In this document: one piece after another, positions 958-37,984 of the stretch | Layout: every line of letters begins with the position of its first letter | Numbering within the stretch: the first letter of the stretch is position 1 | Assembly (NCBI RefSeq): GCF_000746025.2 | Contig: NZ_CP045798.1 | Span: 2,032,501-2,096,500, forward strand | Direction of reading: 5' to 3' | Length of the DNA stretch: 64,000 bases | Origin: Thermanaerosceptrum fracticalcis | Lineage (GTDB): Bacteria; Bacillota; Peptococcia; DRI-13 | The notes under the pieces: generated by a model | Database searches by the model: none | What the model was told of the DNA's origin: nothing | What the model saw: the letters and a program-made list of their open reading frames with translations, nothing else | Made by a program: the position numbers and the translations under genes

Positions 958-2070
958 CTATCTTTCCCGTTCAAATTCGTGTAAAAAACAGGTCACACAA
1001 TGCTTAACAGTCCGGTGACTTACTTCTTCCAACCTTACATAGCGACCGCCCATGACTTCTGCCAACCGGCGGGCTAAACCCAGAGAAAAAGCCCCTTCTT
1101 CCGTGTCCAGGACCAAAGAGATAATTCCTTTTTGTCTATAGATTCCAGCAGCATTTAAGGCTGCTTCCAGGGGGTTTTGCCCTTCTCGGGCCCAGTTGCA
1201 CCGTCCGTCGCTGACTAGGATCAGGATAGGGGTCAGGGCTTTGTTTTTGCGCCGGGCCTGGGTGATAACCTCTAAGCCCTGGAGCAGCCCTTCGGCCAAA
1301 GGAGTTTTCCCTCCTGTAGCCAATTCTGCCAGATATTTTTGGGCCCTTTCCGGACTTGGAGTCGGAGGCAGCAAAACCCGGGAACGATCCTGGCGAAAAG
1401 CCACAAGGGCTACCTGCTGCCTTTTGCGGTAAGCCTCCTTAAGGAGGGAGAGGAGGGCTCCCTTTACTGCCCCCATCCTGGCCCTGGCCCCCATGGACCC
1501 GCTGGCATCAACCACAAAAACCAGCAAATGCTGGGGAGGATTTTCTCTGATTTTTTCCCGAAAGTCCCGGGGCTCTATCTTTAAGAACCCCCCTTCCTTT
1601 TTGCGCCAAGGCTGACACAAGGCCGCCGCCCTTAAGGTGGCATCAAGGGCCACATCCCCTGCGTTTAATTCCTTTCCCCGGGGATAAGTCCAGCCGGCGT
1701 ACCGTCCTCTCTTCTTTCTGCACTCCCTGGTTCCTCGCCAGTCTCCTCTCCCCTTTCCTCCTGCCCCTGCCAGGCCGGGGGGAAGAATACCGTCTGAAAG
1801 AACTATTTCTTCAGGGTTATCTTTTCGCTCTTCAGCCTGACCCATGCCCTTACGCCAGTGGTTACCAGGGGGTAACCCCTTTTTTTCTTCCCTTCTATCT
1901 TCCTTTTCCGGAGGTGCTCCCGCCCCAGGCGGAAGAGGTTTCCCCTGAGCCTCCCCGGGCTGCCGGCTTTGACGGTGGGGCAGAGCATAGGCGGCGGCTT
2001 TCTTCACATCCTGGACCGTTACCGCCTTTCTTCCGTCCCAAGCAGCCAAAGCTCTGGCACACTCCACCAT
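958..2070 (-). CDS. chlD: ChlD-type chelatase subunit, linker and VWA half (second frame of chlD)
   Basis: C-terminal portion of a ChlD/CobT-like subunit. Seen: the last helices of an AAA+ module (the [14 protein letters not shown] stretch), a proline- and charge-rich linker at about residues 40-130, and a VWA domain with the MIDAS motif DASGSMG at 188-194. MIDAS Mg2+ normally contacts the chelatase partner. The first residues continue the AAA+ fold of the overlapping upstream frame (2019-2810), so this is not an independent gene: together they make one protein of about 617 residues, a normal ChlD length. Joining needs a -1 shift at the G5 run 2079-2083. Internal initiation at ATG 2070 is possible but would start inside a folded domain. 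Confidence 0.85.
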   Translation of the reverse strand: MVECARALAAWDGRKAVTVQDVKKAAAYALPHRQSRQPGEAQGKPLPPGAGAPPEKEDRREEKKGLPPGNHWRKGMGQAEERKDNPEEIVLSDGILPPGLAGAGGKGRGDWRGTRECRKKRGRYAGWTYPRGKELNAGDVALDATLRAAALCQPWRKKEGGFLKIEPRDFREKIRENPPQHLLVFVVDASGSMGARARMGAVKGALLSLLKEAYRKRQQVALVAFRQDRSRVLLPPTPSPERAQKYLAELATGGKTPLAEGLLQGLEVITQARRKNKALTPILILVSDGRCNWAREGQNPLEAALNAAGIYRQKGIISLVLDTEEGAFSLGLARRLAEVMGGRYVRLEEVSHRTVKHCVTCFLHEFERER

Positions 2071-2810
2071 GACCAGCTCCCCCGGTGACCTTTACTCCCC
2101 GCTGCCTGGGCCAGTTCTGCCGCTAAACCCAGGATCTCTTCTCCGGTCTTTACTTCCGGCAGGATCCTGCGGGCTGATTTTAATTTGCGGGCAAGCTCCG
2201 CCCCTTCCTCCTGCCACAAGGCCAGAAAACCTGCAGGGTTTTCTTCAAAGACCAGCCTTCTCTTGACTATTTCTTTGCGCAATTCCTCATCTTTTATGCC
2301 CTTCACTTCTACATATAAACCAAAGCGATCCAAAAGCTGGGGGGAAAGCTCCCCTTCCTCGGGATTCATAGTGCCCACCAGCACAAAACGAGACTGATGA
2401 CAAAGGGAAATCCCTTCCCTTTCCACCCTGTTGACTCCGGTGGCTGCCGCATCCAGTATTTTTTTTACAAGGAACGGGGGCAAAAGATTTATTTCATCTA
2501 TGTAAAGCACATGGCCGTGGGCCTGGGCTAAGATACCGGGCTGCAGCACCTTTTCTCCTCTTTGCAACATTTTTTCTAAATCTATCCCCCCTACCAAGCG
2601 GTCTTCCGTGGTATTAAGGGGGACTTCCACTATTTTCAAGGAGTCATCCAAAGTTACCAGAGAACGAACCAGGGAAGATTTGGCCGTCCCTTTGGCCCCG
2701 GAAAGGAGCACCCCCTGAACCCGGGGATTAATCAGACTCAGAAGCAGGGCTTCCTTGGCCTCCTCCTGTCCTACGACGGCCCCGAAGGGATATAGTTGTT
2801 TTCTGCTCAT
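2019..2810 (-). CDS. chlD: ChlI/ChlD-type AAA+ half (first frame of chlD)
   Basis: AAA+ ATPase module of the chelatase motor. Walker A GAKGTAKS is at residues 38-45, Walker B with LYIDEINLL follows near residue 105, and the sensor-type [19 protein letters not shown] stretch is conserved. The start ATG overlaps the stop of chlI (ATGA). Unlike chlI next door, it lacks the four-cysteine insert. Homology to ChlD ends at about residue 242 and the frame then runs 21 unrelated codons to a stop, whereas the expected continuation lies in the -1 frame. Ribosomes staying in frame would make a stand-alone 263-residue AAA+ subunit; ribosomes slipping -1 would make full ChlD. Whether this is programmed, a mutation or a sequencing indel cannot be settled here. 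Confidence 0.85.
2050..2100 (-). other. Candidate -1 ribosomal frameshift signal in chlD
   Basis: On the minus strand the 0-frame codons CGG GGG (2084-2079) sit in a G5 run; slipping back one base on GGG yields GAG CTG GTC ATG, restoring ChlD homology exactly. A Shine-Dalgarno-like GGGGAG (2100-2095) lies 13 nt upstream of the GGG codon. Downstream, AGCTGG can pair with CCAGAGCT with a two-base bulge and a 15-nt loop. Programmed frameshifting has been reported for chlD-type cobaltochelatase genes; its operation here is inference. Confidence 0.5.
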
Positions 2811-3841
2811 TTTTTCTCCCCGTCAAAGATGATTTTTTTAACGGCTTCTTCATCCAGGATCCCCGACTGAAAAGGCAGGCGTTTCATACGGTGGGGCAGA
2901 GCCAGAAGGGCGCTTTCCCACAATTCGTCTTCCCCTACTTCCTGCTGTCCTTTATAAGCAGCCAGAGTTTTAGCCGTCTTGATCATGGTCAGATCGGCCC
3001 GATGACCGTCAACTTCCAGCACCAAGGAAAGGCGGGCTGTTTTTTCATAAATTCTTTCGGGCACCACAACTGCAGACAGCAAGGACCTGGCTTCTGTAAT
3101 GCGCCGGAGCAGCTTTTCCTCCTCTGCCTGGTAGCGGGCCGCAAACCCCGCGGGGTCTTCTTCAAAGGCCATTCTCCTTTTGATGACCTCCATGCGCATA
3201 AGAATTCCCTGTTCCCCTTTTACTTCCACCGAAAGGCCGAAGCGGTCCAACAACTGGGGCCTGAGTTCCCCTTCCTCGGGGTTCATAGTGCCCACCAGCA
3301 CAAAGCGGGCAGGATGACTAAAAGAAATGCCTTCCCTTTCCACAGTATTCACACCCATGGCGGCGGCATCCAGCAGCAGATCCACCAAGTGGTCATCCAG
3401 GAGATTCACTTCATCCACGTAAAGAATGTTGCGGTGGGCCCAGGCCAAGATTCCCGGCTCAAACCGTTTTTCCCCCGCTTTAATGGCATGCTCCAGGTCA
3501 ATGGTCCCCGCTACCCGGTCCTCGGTAGCATTTATCGGCAGCTCTATAACCCTCATTTTTTCTCTGATGACGGAAAATTGTCCATCTTCCTTCTTTTTCT
3601 TACAGTCAGGACAAAGGGAACTCTCCTCCCAAGGATTGCAGTTAAAGGGACAGCCCGCTACTTTTTCCAAAGGAGGCAAAAGGCTGGCCAAAGCCCTTAC
3701 CGCCGTGGATTTAGCCGTTCCCTTCTCTCCTCTGATCAATACCCCGCCTAAAGCAGGATTCACCACATTCAGTATCAGGGCTTTTTTCATCCTTTCCTGA
3801 CCTACCAGGGCAGAAAAGGGATAATAGGATGTTATTTCCAT
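2807..3841 (-). CDS. chlI: ChlI-type AAA+ chelatase subunit
   Basis: AAA+ ATPase of 344 residues, expected to form a hexamer with ChlD and drive metal insertion by CobN. Walker A GEKGTAKS lies at 38-45, Walker B YVDEVNLL at about 141-148, and the [13 protein letters not shown] stretch precedes it. A four-cysteine insert (C64, C68, C77, C80) follows the first helix, as often seen in the ChlI-like proteins that accompany CobN in bacteria without chlorophyll. The ATG overlaps the end of the upstream ABC ATPase gene and its own stop overlaps the chlD start, so the genes are tightly coupled. With a separate chlI present, the AAA+ half of chlD would be a paralogue rather than the sole small subunit. 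Confidence 0.9.
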
Positions 3842-4308
3842 AGATATAAACCGCCTTTCTTTTTCCTTTTATTCAACCCTGCGGCATAGCAGGACAGCAC
3901 TGCCATAAAGCAAGAAGGCTCCAACTTCACTCTGCGCAGCTTTCCTTCTCTGCCTTCCTTTTCCAGGTAAGCCCTGGCCTTTTCATGGCTGGGGAAATAA
4001 TGGACTTCCATTCCTTCCCGTCCTTTTATTTCTACGGCAAATTGCCCCAGGTTTTTAGCCAGTTCTCCGGGTCTCCCCTCCCTGACTACTTGTCCCTGGT
4101 ACATAAAAACAATGCGCTGGCAAAGGATTTCGGCCTCTTCCAGATAATGAGTGGTCAAAAGCATGGTCATGCCCTGCCTGTTCAACTCTAAAAGAAGCTG
4201 CCATATTTCTTGCCTTATTTCCGGGTCCAGACCTGCCGTGGGTTCGTCAAGGACCAACAGTTCCGGCTGGTGCATGAGGGCCCTGGCCAGAAGCAGCCTC
4301 CTTTTCAT
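3832..4308 (-). pseudogene. ABC-2 type transporter ATP-binding protein, C-terminal part after a frameshift
   Basis: Second half of an ABC exporter-type ATPase. It begins in the signature region (FSGGMKRRLLLARAL is readable in this frame from about 4325) and carries Walker B LLVLDEPTAGLDPE and the switch histidine in LLTTHYLEEAE. It completes the protein begun at 4720; the two frames join near 4330-4345. The whole gene would be about 295 residues, normal for this family. The tail ends in a lysine-rich stretch and overlaps the chlI start. No membrane partner for this ATPase is encoded next to it. The break could be a real mutation or an assembly indel. Confidence 0.75.
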
Positions 4309-4720
4309 GCCTCCGGAAAAATTTTCTACTTGCCGGTTTGAAATTTTCCAATCCCGTAAATGCCAGTACTTCTCGGATTTTACGGTCCCTTTCCTCTCCC
4401 GGGATATGAAAAAGGCGGCCGTGAAACTCCAGGTTTTCCCAGGCTGTTAATTCACCTTCCAGGTTATTATGTTGAGGGATAAGTCCTATTTTGCTCTTAA
4501 TGCTGTAAAGATCCCGGGAAAAAATCTGGCCAAAGAGCCTGATTTCACCCCCTGTGGGCTTGAGCAAGCCGCATACCATCCGGATTAGCGTGGTTTTCCC
4601 TGCCCCGTTAGGACCCAAAAGCCCCAAAAAATCCCCCGCTTCTACCTTCAGCTTTACGGCATCCACTGCAGTAAAGTTGCCAAATTTTTTTGTGCAGTTA
4701 ATTATTTCTAGCACAGGCAT
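4247..4720 (-). pseudogene. ABC-2 type transporter ATP-binding protein, N-terminal part before a frameshift
   Basis: First half of an ABC ATPase, with Walker A GPNGAGKTT near residue 37 and a Q-loop in IGLIPQHNNLE. Similarity continues to the TGLENF stretch; after that the frame reads unrelated residues to a stop. The signature motif SGGMKRR is instead found in another frame of the same bases, so roughly the last 30 codons here are out of frame. The first ATG follows the BtuD-like gene by 13 bp, placing it in the cobalamin-riboswitch operon. Proteins of this type (CcmA/NatA-like) export drugs, lipids or metals; the substrate cannot be read from sequence. Confidence 0.75.
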
Positions 4721-4733
4721 GTTTTCAGCTCCC

Positions 4734-5516
4734 TTATCTGGCCAGTCCTTTAATAAAAATGCGGGGCAGTCCTTGTTGATCCCAGCATACCTCCACTTCC
4801 ACCCCGTAAAGGCGCCGCAAATTCTCCGGGTTAATAACCTCCCGGGGGGAACCCATAGCCATAATCTTCCCCTGTTCCATCAACACAACCTTCTCCGCAT
4901 AGCGGGCGGCCTGAGCCACATCATGAAGGACGGCGACAACAGTAAGTCCTTCTTCCTTGTTCAGTTCCCGCACTAATTCCAACAATTCCAGCTGGTGGGC
5001 AATATCCAGGTATGTGGTAGGTTCATCCAGAAGAATTATTTCAGGTTTTTGGGCCAAAGCCATAGCCAGAAAAACCCGCTGTCTTTCCCCTCCTGAAAGT
5101 TCTCCCATCCTGCGCAGAGCAAATTGCTGGACCTTTGTCCTGGCCATGGCCCAGGCAATAATCTTCAGGTCTTCCTGGGTATTGCCCCGCCACCATTTCT
5201 GGTGGGGGTAGCGCCCGTAACTCACCATATCCTTGACCAAAATATCGGGAGGGGCCACGGCCCCCTGGACCAGAATAGCCAGGCGTCTGGCTAAAGCTTT
5301 AGTATCCATGCTGGTGATTTTTTCCTTGCGGTAAAAGACACTGCCCCCATCAGGCTTCAGGTTGCGGGAAAGAAGCTTCAAAAGGGTTGACTTGCCGGAG
5401 CCGTTGGGACCCAAAACAGCCATAAAATCCCCTTCATTAATCTCTAAAGACATTTTTTTTAGAACTTCCTTTTTTTTATAAGCAAATTTCACCCCATCAA
5501 CATTTAAAAGGGCCAT
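4734..5516 (-). CDS. btuD: Iron-siderophore/cobalamin-type ABC importer ATPase (BtuD-like)
   Basis: Cytoplasmic ATPase of 260 residues powering uptake through the adjacent permease. Walker A GPNGSGKS is at 36-43, signature LSGGE at 140-144 and Walker B LLDEPT at 162-167, with the VLHD switch histidine after it. This is the BtuD/FecE/FhuC family. Because the operon is led by a cobalamin riboswitch and also holds chelatase genes, corrinoid (or cobalt-corrinoid precursor) import is the best guess; heme or siderophore is the alternative. The start overlaps the permease stop (TGATG), implying translational coupling. No substrate-binding protein (BtuF) is found in the operon. Confidence 0.88.
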   Translation of the reverse strand: MALLNVDGVKFAYKKKEVLKKMSLEINEGDFMAVLGPNGSGKSTLLKLLSRNLKPDGGSVFYRKEKITSMDTKALARRLAILVQGAVAPPDILVKDMVSYGRYPHQKWWRGNTQEDLKIIAWAMARTKVQQFALRRMGELSGGERQRVFLAMALAQKPEIILLDEPTTYLDIAHQLELLELVRELNKEEGLTVVAVLHDVAQAARYAEKVVLMEQGKIMAMGSPREVINPENLRRLYGVEVEVCWDQQGLPRIFIKGLAR

Positions 5517-6847: not shown

Positions 6848-6910
6848 CCCCATCAATAAGCAACAGCAAACATGCAGGCTGACATTCTTCCCCTGTCCCC
6901 CACAAACTAC

Positions 6911-7067
6911 GTTTAAGGCAGGTCTCCTGACTTGCGGTTCATCCTCCTTACTGCCTTCCCGGGTATGACCAGTGGCATAAAAGTAAATCGTCACCGCTTA
7001 CAGTGGTGGGTCCGTGCCGGATTCACACCGGCTTCCCTATTCTCCCTTGCTACAGGGCACCTTAAAC
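6911..7067 (-). promoter_or_regulatory. Cobalamin (B12) riboswitch
   Basis: Read on the minus strand, it shows the family landmarks in order: a GTTTAAGG P1 strand, AAGGGAGAATAGGGAAGCC, the CCGGTG...CCGGCACGGACCC stem, CCACTGTAA, ATGCCACTG, GGGAAGGC, and the B12-box sequence GCAAGTCAGGAGACCTGCC. P1 is closed by GTTTAAGG at 6911-6918 and CCTTAAAC at 7060-7067. It should turn down the btuCD/ABC/chlID/cobN operon when adenosylcobalamin is plentiful. Confidence 0.96.
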
Positions 7068-7103
7068 TGACCATATTCAATTTATTAAGCTAATTACAAG
7101 CTA

Positions 7104-7196: not shown

Positions 7197-7272
7197 TGGT
7201 GACCCGCCCGGGACTCGAACCCGGTACCCACTGATTAAGAGTCAGTAGCTCTACCAATTAAGCTAGCGAGTC
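7197..7272 (-). tRNA. tRNA-Lys (anticodon CTT)
   Basis: Cloverleaf on the minus strand. The acceptor GACTCGC pairs with GCGGGTC, with discriminator A and encoded CCA at 7199-7197. The D-arm is TAGCTTAATTGGTAGAGC, the anticodon loop CTCTTAA between ACTGA/TCAGT, and the T-arm carries GGTTCGAGTCC. The CTT anticodon reads AAG. It stands alone between the riboswitch promoter region and the helicase gene. Confidence 0.95.
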
Positions 7273-7487: not shown

Positions 7488-8012
7488 GTGATGGTCCTTC
7501 CTATGCTCACCGATGCGCAAATCAAAGAAGTAACTGTTTTGGAAACAACCTACAGCAAAGGTCTCAAATATTACCAGGACGGCAGCGTGTTGTCCCTTCA
7601 TTACGACCGCAAGAACAACAGCTTTTTAGCCGTAGTGCGAGGCACCTATAAATATTATGTGAATGTAACGTTCAACAGCAGAAACCAGCTGGACGACTAT
7701 GCCTGCCAGTGTGAGGCCTTCTTCAGCTACGATGGGGCCTGCAAACATATCGTGGCCGTCATGAAAGCCATTCAGGCCGACTGGCATAAATATTTCGGTA
7801 CTTTCCAGCCATATGAAACCAAAGGGCCCCAGACAGCGCCAAAACTTCCCCAGGGTGTCCAATCTTTCCTGGATTTTTTCAGCAATAGAACATCTTCTTC
7901 CCTTGAGGAGCAAAACACCGTAACGGCCATCCTGAAACCGGAATTTAATTTTTTTTTTGTACCAGGACGGTTCCAAAGTGAGCTGGCTGGAATTTACCGT
8001 CGGCAGCGGTAA
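7488..8012 (+). pseudogene. SNF2-family helicase, N-terminal SWIM zinc-finger part (frameshifted)
   Basis: Start of a large SWIM/SNF2 protein. The SWIM finger is clear: C72-x-C74 and C84-x-H86. These proteins bind nucleic acid through SWIM and translocate on DNA with a C-terminal Swi2/Snf2 motor. The frame leaves homology at a run of ten T (7949-7958); nine T would continue smoothly into the next fragment (FFLYQDGSK). The ATG at 7488 has AGGTG close upstream. The last 20 or so codons are out-of-frame. A homopolymer error or slip is the simplest explanation. Confidence 0.75.
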
Positions 8013-8502
8013 AATGTACACCGTAAAAGACTTGAAAAAATTCCTGGGAACTTTAGCCAAATCGGAAGAATTTACTTTCGGAAAAAACTTCAGCCTAAAA
8101 CCTGGTGAGACAAAATTTGATCCTAAATCTGCCGCTCTGCTCCAATTCATCCAAACCATCGAAAGGGACGAAAAGCAACTTCTCAGTGGTCCGGGAACAA
8201 CCCTTACGCCTATTACCTCAGCCAGTCTCTTTCCATTGACGGAAGAAAGCTGAGACTAAATAATACCAACTTGCTTAAATTCTTCGACCTGATGGGTGAA
8301 GACTCCTTCGTTATCAATATCAACAAAACCCTTGCCGATGTAACCAGAATCGTTAGTACCTTCCCTGGAGAAAATCGGTTCCGTCAGCCTGGCTCCCTCC
8401 TTAAAGGAGAAATTCTACAGGGCACCCCTGACTAAACACGTTTACCTTGACCGGGCCGGCAGCGGCATCAGTGCCCGGGTAGAATTCAAATATGGGCAGG
8501 CA
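7957..8502 (+). pseudogene. SNF2-family helicase, middle part broken by two more frameshifts
   Basis: Continuation of the same protein in three successive frames: YQDGSKVSWLEFTVGSGKMY up to about 8195; NPYAYYLSQSLSIDGRKLRL from about 8200 to 8350; then VPSLEKIGSVSLAP onward from about 8355, which stays open into the helicase part at 8503. The third piece has the YLD and F-YG-aVVNP pattern of the bacterial SNF2-associated domain. The three changes lie within 400 bp, so either the gene is inactivated or this stretch is poorly sequenced. Confidence 0.65.
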
Positions 8503-10551
8503 GTGGTTAATCCCGCTGCCGATAAACAGGCAACCATATTCACTGACAAGGACAAAATCCTTATCAGACAGACAGTAGAAGAAAAAGAGATGGTAGACCT
8601 GTTCCTTAAATGGGGTTTCAAGAAACTTAAAGAGCATTTCCTTCTGGACAGCGAAGAAAAAATATATGACTTCCTGCAGGAAGGTCTTTCTGCTCTGGCC
8701 AGTCTGGCCGAAGTCTACTATTCAGAAGCTTTCAGAAACATAAGGATTAACACTTCCAGCCGTGTCACACCCGCAGTGAGGCTGAATATGGATACGAACC
8801 TTCTGGAAATGGCTTTGACTTATGAGCATTTGGACTCTAAAGAACTTATCGCATTATTAGGAGCATACAAACTGAAAAAAAAGTATTACAGGCTGAAAGA
8901 CGGTTCTTTTCTTGCCCTTGATGGCGACTGGCTTCGGGAAATGGCCGAATTAACAGAAAATCTTGACCTCAGCGAAAAAGATTTGAAAAAAAGTATCATC
9001 AAGCTTCCTAAATACCGTACTCTCTATCTTGACAGCCTGGCCAAAGAAAAAAACCTCCACCTGGAGCGAAACAATGCTTTCAAACAAATAATTCAGGATA
9101 TCCGGGAACCCCGTGAACTGGAATATTCGCTTCCCGAAGGGATCAAAGGCCAGCTCCGGGAATATCAGAAAACAGGCTTCAAGTGGCTTAAAACCCTGGC
9201 CTCTTACGGCCTGGGAGGTATCCTGGCCGATGATATGGGATTGGGAAAAACCTTACAGGTCTTAACCTTTCTCCTTGCAGAAAAAAACAATCCTCCCAGG
9301 GACTCTGCCCCTTCCCTGGTTATAGCCCCCACTTCCCTGGTCTACAACTGGCAGGAAGAAGCGCAAAAATTTGCTCCGGAACTTAAGACAACCCTTATTG
9401 TCGGAAACCAGGAGGAACGGCAGAAAACTATCCAGGATCTGTCTAAGACAGATCTGGCGGTAACCTCCTATCCCCTGCTCAGAAGAGATATGGAACTCTA
9501 TGAAAACCTTGAATTCAAATACTGTATCCTGGATGAAGCCCAGTATATCAAAAATCCCGACACCTTAAACGCTAAAGTCGTGAAAAGCATCAGAGCTCAA
9601 GGATATTTTGCCCTTACCGGTACTCCGTTGGAAAATTCACTGACCGAACTGTGGTCTATTTTTGACTTTCTCATGCCGGGATACCTTTTAAGCCATAACA
9701 AGTTCAAAAACAAATTCGAAACCCCTATTGTCAAACACCAGGATAAGAAGGCTCTGGAGGATCTGTCCCGTCATTTGCAGCCTTTCATCCTGCGTAGGAC
9801 CAAAAAAGAAGTTTTGCAAGAACTTCCTCCCAAGATAGAAAGCAAGTTAACCTGCGAGATGACTGAGGAACAGCGCAAATTATATACAGCCTATCTCTTC
9901 CAGGCCAAAAAAGAGTTTGAGGAAGAACTCCTGGCCCACGGCTTTGAAAAAAGCCAGCTTAAAATCCTGTCCCTCTTGACGCGGCTCAGACAAATCTGCT
10001 GCCACCCCGCCCTTTTTTTTGCAGACTATCAGGGAGGCAGCGGAAAAGCGGAAACCCTTATGGAATTATTAGCAGATGCCGTCAGTGCAGGGCACAGGGT
10101 TCTCCTTTTTTCCCAATTTACCAGCATGCTTTCTCTCCTAAAAGAAGAACTGGCAGCGGCTAAGATCTCCTACCACTACCTTGACGGTACAACGGAATCT
10201 AGGGAACGGCTCATGCTGGTCAACTCCTTTAATGCCGGGGAAAAAGAGGTGTTCTTGATTTCCCTGAAGGCTGGCGGGACAGGTTTGAACCTTACGGGGG
10301 CAGATATGGTGATCCACTATGACCCCTGGTGGAACCCGGCGGTTGAAGAACAAGCCGCAGACAGGGCTTATCGCATGGGCCAGCAAAACACCGTCCAGGT
10401 ATTCAAAATGATCACCAAGGACACCATTGAAGAAAAGATTTATGACCTGCAGCAAAAGAAAAAAGAACTGATCCAGGCCGTTATCAGGCCGGGTGAAAAC
10501 TTCCTGACGAAAATGAGCCAGGAAGAAATCAGAGCACTTTTTGATATTTAA
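8503..10551 (+). CDS. SNF2-family ATP-dependent helicase, C-terminal motor part
   Basis: 682 codons holding the complete Swi2/Snf2 motor: motif I DDMGLGKT at 243-250, motif II LDEAQYIKN, motif III ALTGTPLENS, and motifs V and VI in the C-lobe (GGTGLNLTGAD, DRAYRMGQ). It acts as a DNA translocase; in bacteria its precise role is unclear (RapA-like roles or defence). The reading frame extends upstream to 8344 without its own ribosome site, so the GTG at 8503 is only the first possible start and the piece is really the end of the SWIM/SNF2 gene beginning at 7488. It could give a truncated motor without SWIM only if an internal start were used. Confidence 0.85.
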   Translation: MVNPAADKQATIFTDKDKILIRQTVEEKEMVDLFLKWGFKKLKEHFLLDSEEKIYDFLQEGLSALASLAEVYYSEAFRNIRINTSSRVTPAVRLNMDTNLLEMALTYEHLDSKELIALLGAYKLKKKYYRLKDGSFLALDGDWLREMAELTENLDLSEKDLKKSIIKLPKYRTLYLDSLAKEKNLHLERNNAFKQIIQDIREPRELEYSLPEGIKGQLREYQKTGFKWLKTLASYGLGGILADDMGLGKTLQVLTFLLAEKNNPPRDSAPSLVIAPTSLVYNWQEEAQKFAPELKTTLIVGNQEERQKTIQDLSKTDLAVTSYPLLRRDMELYENLEFKYCILDEAQYIKNPDTLNAKVVKSIRAQGYFALTGTPLENSLTELWSIFDFLMPGYLLSHNKFKNKFETPIVKHQDKKALEDLSRHLQPFILRRTKKEVLQELPPKIESKLTCEMTEEQRKLYTAYLFQAKKEFEEELLAHGFEKSQLKILSLLTRLRQICCHPALFFADYQGGSGKAETLMELLADAVSAGHRVLLFSQFTSMLSLLKEELAAAKISYHYLDGTTESRERLMLVNSFNAGEKEVFLISLKAGGTGLNLTGADMVIHYDPWWNPAVEEQAADRAYRMGQQNTVQVFKMITKDTIEEKIYDLQQKKKELIQAVIRPGENFLTKMSQEEIRALFDI

Positions 10552-15589: not shown

Positions 15590-15700
15590 CTCTTATCTTT
15601 CAGAAGTTGATTACTTCTGCAGGAATTAGCACCAATTTGAGCATGCCCAAACGGTTGCCGGGTTTCATCGGGCCAGTCCCTCCACCTCTCGGGATAAGAG
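15590..15700 (-). promoter_or_regulatory. SAM-I (S-box) riboswitch
   Basis: Minus-strand landmarks: P1 CTCTTATC (15700-15693) pairing with GATAAGAG (15597-15590), CGAGAGGTGGAGGGACTGGCCC, GATGAAACCCGGCAACC, GGTGCTAATTCCTGC and the closing strand. The terminator lies 20 nt downstream, so excess SAM should stop transcription of the DUF39 operon. Confidence 0.97.
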
Positions 15701-27546: not shown

Positions 27547-29000
27547 AACGTATCACCATCGACCCCATTACCAGGCTGGAAGGCCACGGTAAAATCGAAG
27601 TATTCTTAGATGATGCAGGAAACGTGGCCAAAGCCTACCTCCAGATTCCCGAATTGCGGGGCTTTGAAAAGTTTTGTGAAGGCCGGGCCGCCGAAGAAAT
27701 GCCCCGGATTGTACCCCGCATCTGCGGAGTCTGCCCTGAGGCCCACCACCTGGCTTCTGCCAAAGCTTTGGATAGTCTTTGGCAGGTAGACCCTCCACCT
27801 GCCGCCAAAAAACTAAGGGAACTTTTCTACTGTGCCCATTTTATCCATTCCCACATCGCCCACTTTTATGCCCTGGCCGCCCCGGACTTTGTGGTAGGTC
27901 CCGGTGCCGATAAATCCCAGCGCAACATCCTGGGGGTAGTGGCAAAAGTTGGCCTGGAAACAGGCACGCAAGTGATCAAACACCGTTCTTACGCCCAGAA
28001 GATCCAGGCTATGATTGGCGGCAAGGCCACTCATCCTGTATGCGGCCTGCCGGGGGGTATGAGTAAGCCCCTTTCTGAAGAAGAACGCAAGCACATTGAA
28101 GCCATGGCTATGTCCTGTGTGGACTTTGCAAAAGAATCCTTACAAATTTTTGAAGACGTAGTCCTCAAGAATAACGAGTACGTCAAACTTATCCTTAGTG
28201 AAATGTACCAGCTGGCCCCTTATTCCATGGGCCTGGTCGACGGGAATAACAGGGTAAACTTTTATGACGGCTTAGTAAGGGTTGTAGACCAAAAAGGCCA
28301 GGAAGTTGCTAAATTCGCAAGCCATCAATATCCTGATTTTATCGCCGAACATGTGGAAAGCTGGTCATATTTGAAATTTCCCTACTTGAAAAATCCAGGC
28401 TGGAAAGGTATTATGGAGGATGCAGAAAGCGGTATCCTCTGGGTCGGTCCCCTGGGTAGATTAAATGCCGCTGAAGGAATGGCCACCCCCATGGCCCAAA
28501 AAGCTTATGAGAAAATGTATGGCGCTTTGGGCGGTAAGCCCTCCCGCGCAACCCTGGCTTTCCACTGGGCCCGTCTGGTGGAACTGCTCTATGCCGCCGA
28601 ACGCATGCTGGAACTCTCCCAGGACCCGGAAATTACAAGTACGGACATCCGGCGCCTTCCCACGGCCATACCAAGAGAAGGTTTCGGCATCGTAGAGGCC
28701 CCCCGGGGAACCCTCTACCACCATTACCAGACAAACGAGCAGGGAATCCTGGAAAAAGTAAATATTGTCGTAGCTACCGCCCATAATTATGCTGCCATGA
28801 ACATCTCCGTAGATAAAGCAGCCAAGGGCCTGGTTAAAAACGGTGAGCTTAACCAGCAAGCCTTAAATATGATCGAAATGGCTTTCCGGGCCTATGACCC
28901 CTGTTTCGGCTGCGCCACCCACACCATGCCCGGCAGTCTCCCGGTAGATATCAAGATATATAACAGCCAGGGAGAACCCTGGATAAATTTGCCTTGGTAA
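27543..29000 (+). CDS. mvhA: [NiFe] hydrogenase large subunit, group 3c (MvhA-like)
   Basis: 485-residue catalytic subunit that oxidises H2. The NiFe ligands are present: L1 RICGVC with C61/C64 and L2 DPCFGC with C454/C457. All are cysteine, with no in-frame TGA selenocysteine. A 25-residue tail after H460 (TMPGSLP...) is the piece removed by the maturation protease, whose gene follows directly. ATG overlaps the mvhG stop. Together with MvhDG and HdrABC it would couple H2 oxidation to ferredoxin reduction, or run in reverse to make H2. Confidence 0.95.
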   Translation: MKRITIDPITRLEGHGKIEVFLDDAGNVAKAYLQIPELRGFEKFCEGRAAEEMPRIVPRICGVCPEAHHLASAKALDSLWQVDPPPAAKKLRELFYCAHFIHSHIAHFYALAAPDFVVGPGADKSQRNILGVVAKVGLETGTQVIKHRSYAQKIQAMIGGKATHPVCGLPGGMSKPLSEEERKHIEAMAMSCVDFAKESLQIFEDVVLKNNEYVKLILSEMYQLAPYSMGLVDGNNRVNFYDGLVRVVDQKGQEVAKFASHQYPDFIAEHVESWSYLKFPYLKNPGWKGIMEDAESGILWVGPLGRLNAAEGMATPMAQKAYEKMYGALGGKPSRATLAFHWARLVELLYAAERMLELSQDPEITSTDIRRLPTAIPREGFGIVEAPRGTLYHHYQTNEQGILEKVNIVVATAHNYAAMNISVDKAAKGLVKNGELNQQALNMIEMAFRAYDPCFGCATHTMPGSLPVDIKIYNSQGEPWINLPW

Positions 29001-35221: not shown

Positions 35222-37492
35222 TTATGAAATATTTCTCTTGTAATACTCCTCAAGTTTGTTATTACAATGCTCCTTAATCCACTCAACATCCTCTTTTGAT
35301 AGCTTTCTAAATATATGTCGGTTAAACTCGACATACTCAATATCACGGCTTCTCCTGACAAAACGCATATCTTCAAATCGTCTAAATGGATTGGCAAATA
35401 TATTCCTCTCTACATCCTTCCGAGTAAATCCCTCTTTACAGAATATACTGTTCTTCTTTTCTACAACCAACCCTTTATTCTTTCGGTCACTGTAAAAACC
35501 AATAAAATAATCAACTATATCCTCTACCCTAACTCTTCCATTTTCATCAACATGCTCAAACATAGCTTTTAGGAGGACTGGCTTATAGGAATAGCTCATA
35601 TCCATGGTCTTTACAATATCCATAAACTTATCCTTCATATTTGCTGCAGTTATCAGTTCCCAGCCAAACTCAGACGCATACTTTTTCACAGTTTCTTCTT
35701 TAAAATATTTAAAACTGTACCTATCACCTACCGGAACCTCCAAATCAGGTTTTATCTTTCCTTCTCTAATATACCTTTCAACTGTCTCTTTCTGTACATC
35801 AACCATTCTCACAAATTCTAGCTGAGATATCATATTCTTAACTTCGTCCTGCCAATTAAACAGATCAATCAATTCATAGTCTGTTATATCTACTGGGAAG
35901 TCCAGGTAAACCTCGGGTTTTTCGCCTTTGGCCAGCAAGTTCATATCATGCTCTATCTGCTTGTCTGGCGCAAGTACCAATTGTCCGGGACGATAATTCT
36001 TGATATTTAACAGCCTATGAATCGAGTAAGGCATGTTAAACATATTGGCATTATCAATAAAATCAAAGACCATCAGATAGTCCTTACCTTTACATTTACG
36101 CATTCCTCTTCCCAGCTGTTGTATATAAAGGGTTTTAGACATGGTAGGTCTGGCCATAAAAAGCACTTCTGTCTTCGGACTGTCCCATCCTTCATTCAGA
36201 AGATCGCAAGCACAAAGCACATTTATATCTCCATTTTCATAACAATCTAATATGCGTGCTCTTTCAGAACTTTTCTGCGTGCCTGAAACAGCTTCACATT
36301 TTACATCATTCTCCCTAAAAAGCCCCGCAATTTCTTCCGCATGCTTAACAGAAGCACAAAAAACTAAGGTCTTCTTGTTTTTCACATATTGCAAGTATGT
36401 ATCAACAATTATCCTGTTCCTTTCAGGCACAAACAGCTTGCTTTCAAGGTCCTGCGAATTATATTTGATCCCGTTGATTCTTACAGCGGAAATGTCTACA
36501 TTAGTTTTAACCCGGATACAGCGGATTGGAGTTAGTTCACCTATTTCAACAGCCGTTTTCAGGTCCAGTTTATGCGCAACATTTTTAAATAACTCCAGTA
36601 AATCCTCACCGTCTGTCCTCTCCGGAGTTGCCGTAAGTCCCAGGGTAAATTTCGGTCTAAAATACCCAAGTACCTTCCTGTAAGTATTTGCAGTACTATG
36701 ATGGCATTCGTCAATAATAATATATCCGAAGTCATCCGGCTTGAACTGATCAAGATTCTGCGCCACACTTTGAATACTTGCACATACTACATATGCATTT
36801 GTATCTTTTTCTTCAGCCACATACATACCAGTTTGTTTCTCAGGCCAGATATGCTCGAATGTATTTTTTGCCTGAGTGACAAGCTCCCGGGTATGCGCCA
36901 GGAAAAGGGTTCTTTCACCAAAGTTCTTGGCATCAGTAACTGCAGTGACCGTTTTACCTGTGCCTGTTGCATGGTATAAAAGCGCAATACTTTCTCCGTT
37001 GTTCCTCATCTTTTTAAGGTTATCAATTGCAAACTGCTGATGATCTTTCAGTTCAACAGCCTTTCCTTTCTGCTTTAGCAGATAATCCTCCAGCATCCTG
37101 AATTCAGGCATTTCACCGACAAAGGTAATCAGTTCATCCTTTACCTTTTCACGCTGCTTCTTCAATTGGCTGTATGCCCAACGGTATACCTTCCAGTTGT
37201 TGAAAATCAGGCTGTTTTGTTTTAGCAAATCGTCAAAATATTTATTACTCGAAATCTTATTAGGATTATGAAAACGTTCCCCGTCAATCTCTATAGCAAT
37301 CCGCATCTCTTCGCTTTCAAGAGCAAAGTCAATAAATCTCCTGTTGCCATAAATATCTACAAAAGGGTACTGTACAAATAGATACTGGGTTTTTTCAGGC
37401 CCAAATGCATCACAGAAAAGCTCGACAAATAAGTCTTCCGCGACACTTGCCACACTGGCAGACTGTTTTATCTCAGTCTTCATCCTGTTCAC
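35222..37492 (-). CDS. Fusion of Vsr/DUF559-like nuclease domain and SF2 DEAD/DEAH helicase
   Basis: Protein of about 756 residues. Residues 45-110 resemble a PD-(D/E)XK nuclease of DUF559/Vsr type: D55 in FIDFAL, E68-x-D70 in IAIEIDGERFH, then FNNWKVYRW. A SF2 helicase follows: ATGTGKT at 175-181, DECHH at 261-265, GLTATPERTDG, and the QQLGRGMRK arginine motif. After it come a MerR/HTH-like patch (ETVERYIREGKIKPD) and an alpha-rich tail. This architecture is typical of defence or restriction-like helicases. It begins within the stop of the MazG-like gene (GTGA); ATG 37483, with GGAG 8 nt before it, is an equally good start. No methyltransferase accompanies it. Base composition is AT-richer than neighbours, which hints at transfer. 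Confidence 0.85.
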   Translation of the reverse strand: MNRMKTEIKQSASVASVAEDLFVELFCDAFGPEKTQYLFVQYPFVDIYGNRRFIDFALESEEMRIAIEIDGERFHNPNKISSNKYFDDLLKQNSLIFNNWKVYRWAYSQLKKQREKVKDELITFVGEMPEFRMLEDYLLKQKGKAVELKDHQQFAIDNLKKMRNNGESIALLYHATGTGKTVTAVTDAKNFGERTLFLAHTRELVTQAKNTFEHIWPEKQTGMYVAEEKDTNAYVVCASIQSVAQNLDQFKPDDFGYIIIDECHHSTANTYRKVLGYFRPKFTLGLTATPERTDGEDLLELFKNVAHKLDLKTAVEIGELTPIRCIRVKTNVDISAVRINGIKYNSQDLESKLFVPERNRIIVDTYLQYVKNKKTLVFCASVKHAEEIAGLFRENDVKCEAVSGTQKSSERARILDCYENGDINVLCACDLLNEGWDSPKTEVLFMARPTMSKTLYIQQLGRGMRKCKGKDYLMVFDFIDNANMFNMPYSIHRLLNIKNYRPGQLVLAPDKQIEHDMNLLAKGEKPEVYLDFPVDITDYELIDLFNWQDEVKNMISQLEFVRMVDVQKETVERYIREGKIKPDLEVPVGDRYSFKYFKEETVKKYASEFGWELITAANMKDKFMDIVKTMDMSYSYKPVLLKAMFEHVDENGRVRVEDIVDYFIGFYSDRKNKGLVVEKKNSIFCKEGFTRKDVERNIFANPFRRFEDMRFVRRSRDIEYVEFNRHIFRKLSKEDVEWIKEHCNNKLEEYYKRNIS

Positions 37493-37815
37493 TCCAGTTC
37501 TTCAATTACTTCCTTTAATAATAATCGCTCTTTAAAACCTCCCCGTTCCTCCGCCTTTTTCAGGCGAATTCTTTCAAATTCCTCGATGGTTACTTTCTTA
37601 TAATCAAGAATTGCGTATATTACCTCAACAATGTCAGCTAATTCCTCAACATTATCATTACAAATATATTCCTGAAGTTCTTCCCCCAGCTTTTCATCAA
37701 GGAGCTTTTTATAAATAGCTTCATCTAATTTTTCAATTATGGCCTTTTTCCCAGTCATTTCTATAATTTCTGGTATTCTATCTCTCACCAGCTTATCATA
37801 TTTAATTGTAGCCAT
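37489..37815 (-). CDS. MazG-like/phosphoribosyl-ATP pyrophosphohydrolase-type protein
   Basis: 108-residue all-alpha NTP pyrophosphohydrolase. The start YDKLVRDRIPEII is characteristic, and metal-binding acidic residues appear in KLGEELQEY and EELADIVEVIYAI (E-x2-E ... E-x2-D pattern). It should hydrolyse (d)NTPs to NMPs. It is not HisE because no his genes are near and the N-terminus is of the house-cleaning type. ATG 37815 is chosen because AAGGAG lies 10 nt upstream. It overlaps the nuclease-helicase gene by 4 bp, so both proteins should be made together. Confidence 0.85.
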   Translation of the reverse strand: MATIKYDKLVRDRIPEIIEMTGKKAIIEKLDEAIYKKLLDEKLGEELQEYICNDNVEELADIVEVIYAILDYKKVTIEEFERIRLKKAEERGGFKERLLLKEVIEELE

Positions 37816-37951: not shown

Positions 37952-37984
37952 AGAGCCATAAGGTATATTCCACCTCATGGCTCT
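37952..37984. terminator. Hairpin between lplA region and the MazG-like gene
   Basis: AGAGCCAT / ATGGCTCT, 8-bp stem with a 17-nt loop and AT-rich flanks. It lies downstream of lplA (minus) in an intergenic gap and probably ends that transcript. Confidence 0.45.

Follow-up and report, generated by a model that had tools for sequence, protein, structure and literature searches.

How might a predicted nuclease-helicase that is encoded without a methyltransferase spare the genome that carries it? The question is raised by two neighboring genes of Thermanaerosceptrum fracticalcis, one for a small hydrolase and one for a nuclease-helicase, which lie within a 64,000-nucleotide stretch of contig NZ_CP045798.1 (hereafter the window). 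A first-pass annotation of this DNA had read the two genes as a module and as a candidate defense system. We examined both proteins, their relatives and their genomic surroundings, and conclude that the pair is likely a restriction-like defense module, and one that appears to have escaped description.

Layout of the locus

The features of the locus, together with others placed in the window and one elsewhere in the genome, are collected in Table 1. The most likely start of the hydrolase gene is ATG 37815, which is preceded by AAGGAGA 9 nt upstream. The nuclease-helicase gene has two candidate starts: GTG 37492 produces the 4-bp overlap between the genes that had been annotated, while ATG 37483, with GGAG 8 nt upstream, replaces this overlap by a 5-nt gap. 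The overlap thus depends on which of the two codons is used. Given the hairpin that separates the module from lplA, the pair probably forms its own transcription unit. The surrounding genes encode hydrogenase, lipoate and fermentation functions, and the locus itself is not a defense island.

Table 1. Positions of the features discussed, in window coordinates unless stated otherwise.
Feature	Position	Strand	Basis or remark
Hydrolase gene	37489..37815	-	ORF real; 108 aa from ATG 37815, 111 aa from TTG 37824
Nuclease-helicase gene	35222..37492	-	ORF real; 756 aa from GTG 37492, 753 aa from ATG 37483
PD-(D/E)XK nuclease domain, residues about 15-125 (D55, E68-x-D70, Q92)	37118..37450	-	Profile and invariance
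SF2 ATPase/helicase core, residues 146-483	36044..37057	-	ResIII 7.6e-39, Helicase_C 5.6e-17
HTH/excisionase-like patch, residues about 555-600	35693..35830	-	Weak; putative DNA binding
C-terminal domain, residues 621-756	35225..35632	-	Common to MazG-linked PLD-helicases
Terminator-like hairpin, 14 pairs	37952..37984	-	Between lplA and module
Cobalamin riboswitch	6900-7079	-	
tRNA-Lys (CTT)	7197-7272	-	
SAM riboswitch	15590-15700	-	
Wadjet-type locus, own genome	about 1646-5035 within region 3100000-3113200	+	JetC, JetD homologues

With 38.2% GC, the module is nearly as AT-rich as any 2.6-kb segment of the window, whose mean is 45.8%. The annotated contrast with the flanks is clear on the hydrogenase side (51-55%) but slight relative to lplA (40.5%) and DUF401 (40.3%), so that base composition alone fails to delimit the module on the lplA side. 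Because these two nearly as AT-rich genes are both conserved in the sister genome, the earlier argument for horizontal transfer from AT content relative to lplA is not supported in that form, and composition alone is weak grounds for proposing transfer.

In agreement with the first-pass annotation, the open reading frames between window positions 28000 and 46000 include no methyltransferase, and the locus therefore lacks the cognate methyltransferase of classic restriction-modification. A search of the whole genome for C5-methyltransferases, covering PF00145 as distinct from the N6 and N4 methyltransferases, is likewise negative.

Domains and catalytic residues of the nuclease-helicase

In the second protein, a PD-(D/E)XK nuclease is predicted at the N terminus, followed by an SF2 core and, toward the C terminus, a region that would bind DNA. 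For the nuclease domain, the MTES_1575 profile matches the window protein at E 2.5e-6, with a score of 27.9 bits that lies under the curated cut-off of 38.2. Across the family, the same profile matches 52 of 54 members at E<=0.01 (best 1.2e-9) and DUF559 matches 16 of 54, while the PLDc profile matches none of these 54 PD-type members. The catalytic residues fall where they had been proposed: among 82 homologues, D55 and E68 are invariant (82/82 each) and D70 is kept in 81.

The motifs of the SF2 core are intact, as judged from the two profile matches in Table 1 and from the alignment of homologues. Its nearest relative in the PDB is SauUSI (7clg, E 2.1e-55), which also ranks first in the structural comparison, and RadD and XPB are also among the nearest solved relatives. 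The HTH-like patch of the first-pass annotation receives weak matches, namely a PADLOC mad1 match over residues 555-595 (E 0.0017) and an Excisionase-like match in 1 of the 54 members; the patch probably binds DNA. The structural model of the full protein is of moderate confidence (pLDDT 77), and the C-terminal region consequently has no confident fold match.

Fold and metal-binding motif of the hydrolase

Sequence and structural modeling together predict that the first protein is a small all-alpha NTP pyrophosphohydrolase of the MazG/HisE type. Pfam and NCBIfam profiles give no meaningful match to the window protein itself, and a sequence search of the PDB returns chance matches only. Among 94 relatives, the leading profile families are PRA-PH (23/94) and MazG-like (16/94). 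AlphaFold models the protein with very high confidence (pLDDT 96), and in a structural comparison ranks 1-31 are occupied entirely by all-alpha NTP pyrophosphohydrolases (Z 5.7-7.6), including integron MazG, HisE, YpjD, DR2231, RS21-C6 and the MazG-like protein of phage S-2L, with no unrelated family above them. A Z of up to 7.6 is middling for a helical protein, and the fold assignment thus rests on the consistency of this match list combined with the motif. The protein has the four-helix fold of the superfamily and its EExxE ... ExxD metal-binding motif, here E45-E46-x-x-E49 ... E58-x-x-D61 together with E64. E45, E46, D61 and E64 are present in all 94 relatives, E49 in 92 and E58 in 91. The MazG-like designation therefore stands on family-level matches and structure, and for both proteins the annotated folds are supported.

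The two genes are paired in other genomes

To what extent do the two genes travel together? Searching the genomes of bacteria and archaea from the helicase side yields 235 relatives, and the best 80 of these come nearly all from Clostridia. In the 81 intact nuclease-helicase loci (80 genomic and one viral), a hydrolase gene lies within 1 kb in 61, nearly always immediately upstream and on the same strand. About a quarter of the 81 loci have no adjacent hydrolase, which counts against a two-component model. From the other side, in a search blind to helicases, 60 genomes out of 398 from the phylum contain a hydrolase homologue, and by our count a same-strand SF2 helicase stands within about 600 bp in 30 of 58 hydrolase loci; random adjacency is estimated at ~4 in 10,000, taking 1.2 kb in a ~3 Mb genome. 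The annotated two-gene module is thus a conserved pairing when approached from either gene.

The hydrolase family also occurs alone, on plasmids and viral contigs. Environmental viral contigs often contain its relatives (213 matches, of which 80 were retained); none of the 80 adjoins a helicase, and one has a helicase 1.5 kb away. A phage collection contains no hydrolase match, and four plasmid regions with the hydrolase have no annotated nuclease-helicase beside it. On the strength of this phage collection and the 80 viral contigs we rejected the idea that the pair as such is phage-borne, and on that of the four plasmid regions the idea that it is carried on plasmids.

Several loci depart from the simple arrangement. 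Relatives from the gut have a third small gene between the pair, encoding either DUF6998 or an unassigned protein of 115-130 aa, and in two loci a HIT hydrolase gene follows the helicase. The nuclease-helicase occurs at three distinct places in the genome of Desulfosporosinus metallidurans OL, in each case next to a hydrolase gene, one of them truncated, and Faecalibacterium gallinarum has two nuclease-helicase loci. The human gut phage contig MT836124.1 encodes a full-length distant relative (28.6%; 7974-10511 of the locus read) with a degenerate nuclease motif, ExN for ExD, and this gene adjoins a methyltransferase-like open reading frame.

Hydrolase linkage recurs with a second type of nuclease

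In the phylum hydrolase sample, the nuclease of most hydrolase-linked helicases is of the PLD and not of the PD-(D/E)XK type. Gene order differs between the two kinds of pair: 55 of 56 PD-type pairs begin with the hydrolase, and 19 of 26 PLD-type pairs begin with the helicase. In the helicase-core tree, the PD and PLD clades are split by a branch of length about 2 with 100% SH-aLRT support. The opposite gene order combined with this deep split suggests that the linkage has been selected more than once, and the fully supported long branch indicates that its origin or its rearrangement was probably not a single event. A tree of the hydrolase, built on few columns, does not show how frequently partners were exchanged.

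Both MazG-linked clades have a C-terminal domain in common (hhalign 97%, E 4e-11). DUF3427, the C-terminal domain of SauUSI-like proteins, has no Pfam match in the PD-type family, and the common domain is not detected in the DUF3427 proteins (hhalign probability 0.9%, E 0.065). Since it is common to the two MazG-linked groups and is not detected in the DUF3427 group, it may serve in docking or recognition. In 14 of 28 loci, the SauUSI-like PLD-helicase-DUF3427 proteins have instead an adjacent Nudix gene, at distances between about -67 and +64 bp; these 28 are the DUF3427 loci met within the sampled loci, some of them cut by contig ends. MutT genes have been noted beside SauUSI homologues in a published legend (PMC7641849). 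A restriction-type nuclease motor accompanied by a nucleotide-hydrolyzing partner is thus a recurring theme.

Distribution and neighbors point to a probable defense role

The module is sparsely distributed: among 46 genomes from the class, a single one has an intact full-length copy, and there is one remnant besides. The homologous site in a same-genus genome (contig 153; 5535-7704 of the locus read) holds a 494-aa open reading frame beside a decayed helicase. This remnant retains helicase residues 412-582 and 696-756, with the internal stretch deleted; missing are the hydrolase and roughly 411 residues from the start of the helicase, and the flanks are conserved at 89-92% identity. The module has been replaced and has decayed at this site.

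Among the neighbors of the 81 loci, Wadjet genes lie near 7, Mza-like genes near 5 and DUF3427 proteins near 17. Counted by PADLOC family, the neighborhoods contain 161 families, compared with 79 for a random control of the same size, a modest enrichment of about twofold, and the control also held a Wadjet locus. We therefore retain a modest enrichment for the family as a whole and discard the stronger claim of a defense-island setting. The genome of T. fracticalcis has a Wadjet-type locus of its own, with JetC and JetD homologues, ~1 Mb from the module; it came to light through the random control.

The patchy distribution, the presence of several copies per genome, the decay in a sister genome and the Wadjet or Mza-like neighbors of some loci make a defense role likely, and together with the conserved pairing they uphold the candidacy proposed in the first-pass annotation.

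A proposed restriction-like module in which the hydrolase would protect the host

What would each protein contribute to such a role? SauUSI cuts DNA containing 5mC or 5hmC and translocates by means of ATP (PMC7913695), and by analogy with this relative the likeliest mechanism for the nuclease-helicase would be a SauUSI-like one. The C-terminal region would recognize foreign or modified DNA, the SF2 motor would translocate at the expense of ATP, and the N-terminal PD-(D/E)XK domain would cut. Under the explanation we tentatively prefer, the two genes form a two-component restriction-like module without a methyltransferase, in which the hydrolase sanitizes the dNTP pool for self-protection. The MazG-type partner would hydrolyze modified or non-canonical dNTPs; the bases that trigger the nuclease would thereby be kept out of host DNA, and this exclusion would take the place of methylation.

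The locus has no methyltransferase and the genome no C5-methyltransferase, and it may thus be the hydrolase that protects the host. The chemistry that this requires is available in the superfamily, since DCTPP1, an all-alpha member, hydrolyzes 5-methyl-dCTP and lowers DNA methylation (PMC4491611). The trigger is unlikely to be 5mC in general, because homologues of C5-methyltransferases lie near 7 of the 81 nuclease-helicases (one of the seven is a 129-aa fragment), and we rejected 5mC as a general target on this count.

A broader proposition, which we regard as rather improbable though worth stating, is that pool sanitation defines a whole class of restriction systems, in which at least three nuclease-helicase clades each recruited an NTP pyrophosphohydrolase to keep trigger bases out of DNA. 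On the same rather improbable reading, the recruited partners would be MazG-type enzymes for two clades, Nudix enzymes for one and HIT enzymes in a few loci.

Alternatively, both proteins might attack the phage, the hydrolase depleting dNTPs or modified phage dNTPs on infection while the nuclease-helicase cuts DNA, a proposal close to that of the first-pass annotation, which suggested control of the nucleotide pool together with DNA attack once a phage has entered. The conserved, operon-like pairing and the defense neighbors are compatible with such joint action, as is the inclusion of a MazG domain among predicted, unvalidated defense domains in one report (PMC13092281). Neither gene contains an evident regulatory or sensor part, and a hydrolase family so common on viral contigs fits housekeeping better than toxicity; we consider joint attack unlikely. 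As the hydrolase is widespread alone, including on viral contigs without a helicase, a sanitizing and self-protecting function is at least as plausible as an attacking one.

It is also unlikely, in our estimation, that the pair has nothing to do with defense and serves DNA repair or genome sanitation, the hydrolase clearing damaged dNTPs and a RadD-like nuclease-helicase removing lesions. The kinship of the SF2 core with RadD and XPB, and the house-cleaning character of the MazG, Nudix and HIT folds, speak for this proposal. Its weaknesses are the very patchy distribution, the sister-genome decay, the several copies in one genome, a nuclease domain of restriction type and the Wadjet or Mza-like neighbors.

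Least probable is that the hydrolase acts as a protein antitoxin or allosteric regulator, which would bind the common C-terminal domain and hold the nuclease inactive until it meets a nucleotide ligand: the presence of that domain in both MazG-linked clades agrees with the idea, as does the failure to detect it in the DUF3427 clade with its Nudix neighbors, but the hydrolase retains every one of its catalytic residues and is missing from a quarter of the loci.

Comparison with known systems

The preferred explanation, restriction with a sanitized nucleotide pool, can be set against the systems that the pair most resembles. As in the first-pass annotation, which could name no counterpart, no model in PADLOC-DB 2.0.0 fits both proteins; the hydrolase has no match there, and the helicase has partial matches, mostly to other helicase families. 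We thus discarded assignment to a named PADLOC system.

SauUSI, a modification-dependent type IV enzyme of PLD-SF2-DUF3427 architecture, has the closest SF2 core, and the window protein shares with it a SauUSI/RadD-type core, the succession of N-terminal nuclease, motor and C-terminal DNA-recognition region on one chain, and the lack of a methyltransferase. In contrast to SauUSI, it has a PD-(D/E)XK domain (MTES_1575/DUF559) in place of PLD, no DUF3427 and a MazG partner upstream, whereas the SauUSI-like proteins in the sampled loci often have a Nudix neighbor and not a MazG one. Membership in the SauUSI family is ruled out by the nuclease type and the DUF3427 domain. The RadD/XPB helicases have the helicase core in common with the window protein but carry neither an N-terminal nuclease nor a MazG partner, and RadD is, by its database name, a repair protein.

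Hhe-type systems combine a DUF4011 SF1 helicase with Vsr; the core of the window protein is SF2 (ResIII and Helicase_C), which excludes this type. The MTES_1575/DUF559/Vsr-like REase domains of conflict systems have the same catalytic residues, and their profile is matched across the family, with the window protein itself below the curated cut-off. In the report on the Vsr-fold REase (PMC3710099), the founding protein combines an SF1 helicase with transglutaminase, HEPN and wHTH, while the window protein has an SF2 core and a MazG partner.

The hydrolase has its fold and EExxE/ExxD motif in common with MazG, HisE, DR2231, RS21-C6/DCTPP1 and the cyanophage S-2L MazG-like protein. Relative to these all-alpha NTP pyrophosphohydrolases, its family forms a subfamily of its own, marked by the conserved motifs KLVRDxIP and RGGF, and about half of the phylum sample of this subfamily is linked to nuclease-helicases. 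Nucleotide-centered systems were reportedly predicted by Burroughs in 2015. DefensePredictor, published in 2026, predicted a MazG NTP pyrophosphohydrolase as a defense domain, so the idea of MazG in defense is not new; its text, on which our comparison with the window pair is based, names no helicase partner (PMC13092281).

The searchable literature yielded no description of the pair, of its recurrence with two nucleases, of the common C-terminal domain or of the Nudix parallel. A functional pairing would explain how a modification-sensing nuclease without a methyltransferase spares its own genome, would tie house-cleaning nucleotide enzymes to restriction by one testable rule, and would give a likely role to a very common family of small hydrolases annotated only as 'nucleoside triphosphate pyrophosphohydrolase'. 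Both domains are of known kinds, and it is their pairing, together with its recurrence across two types of nuclease, that sets this module apart as apparently undescribed.
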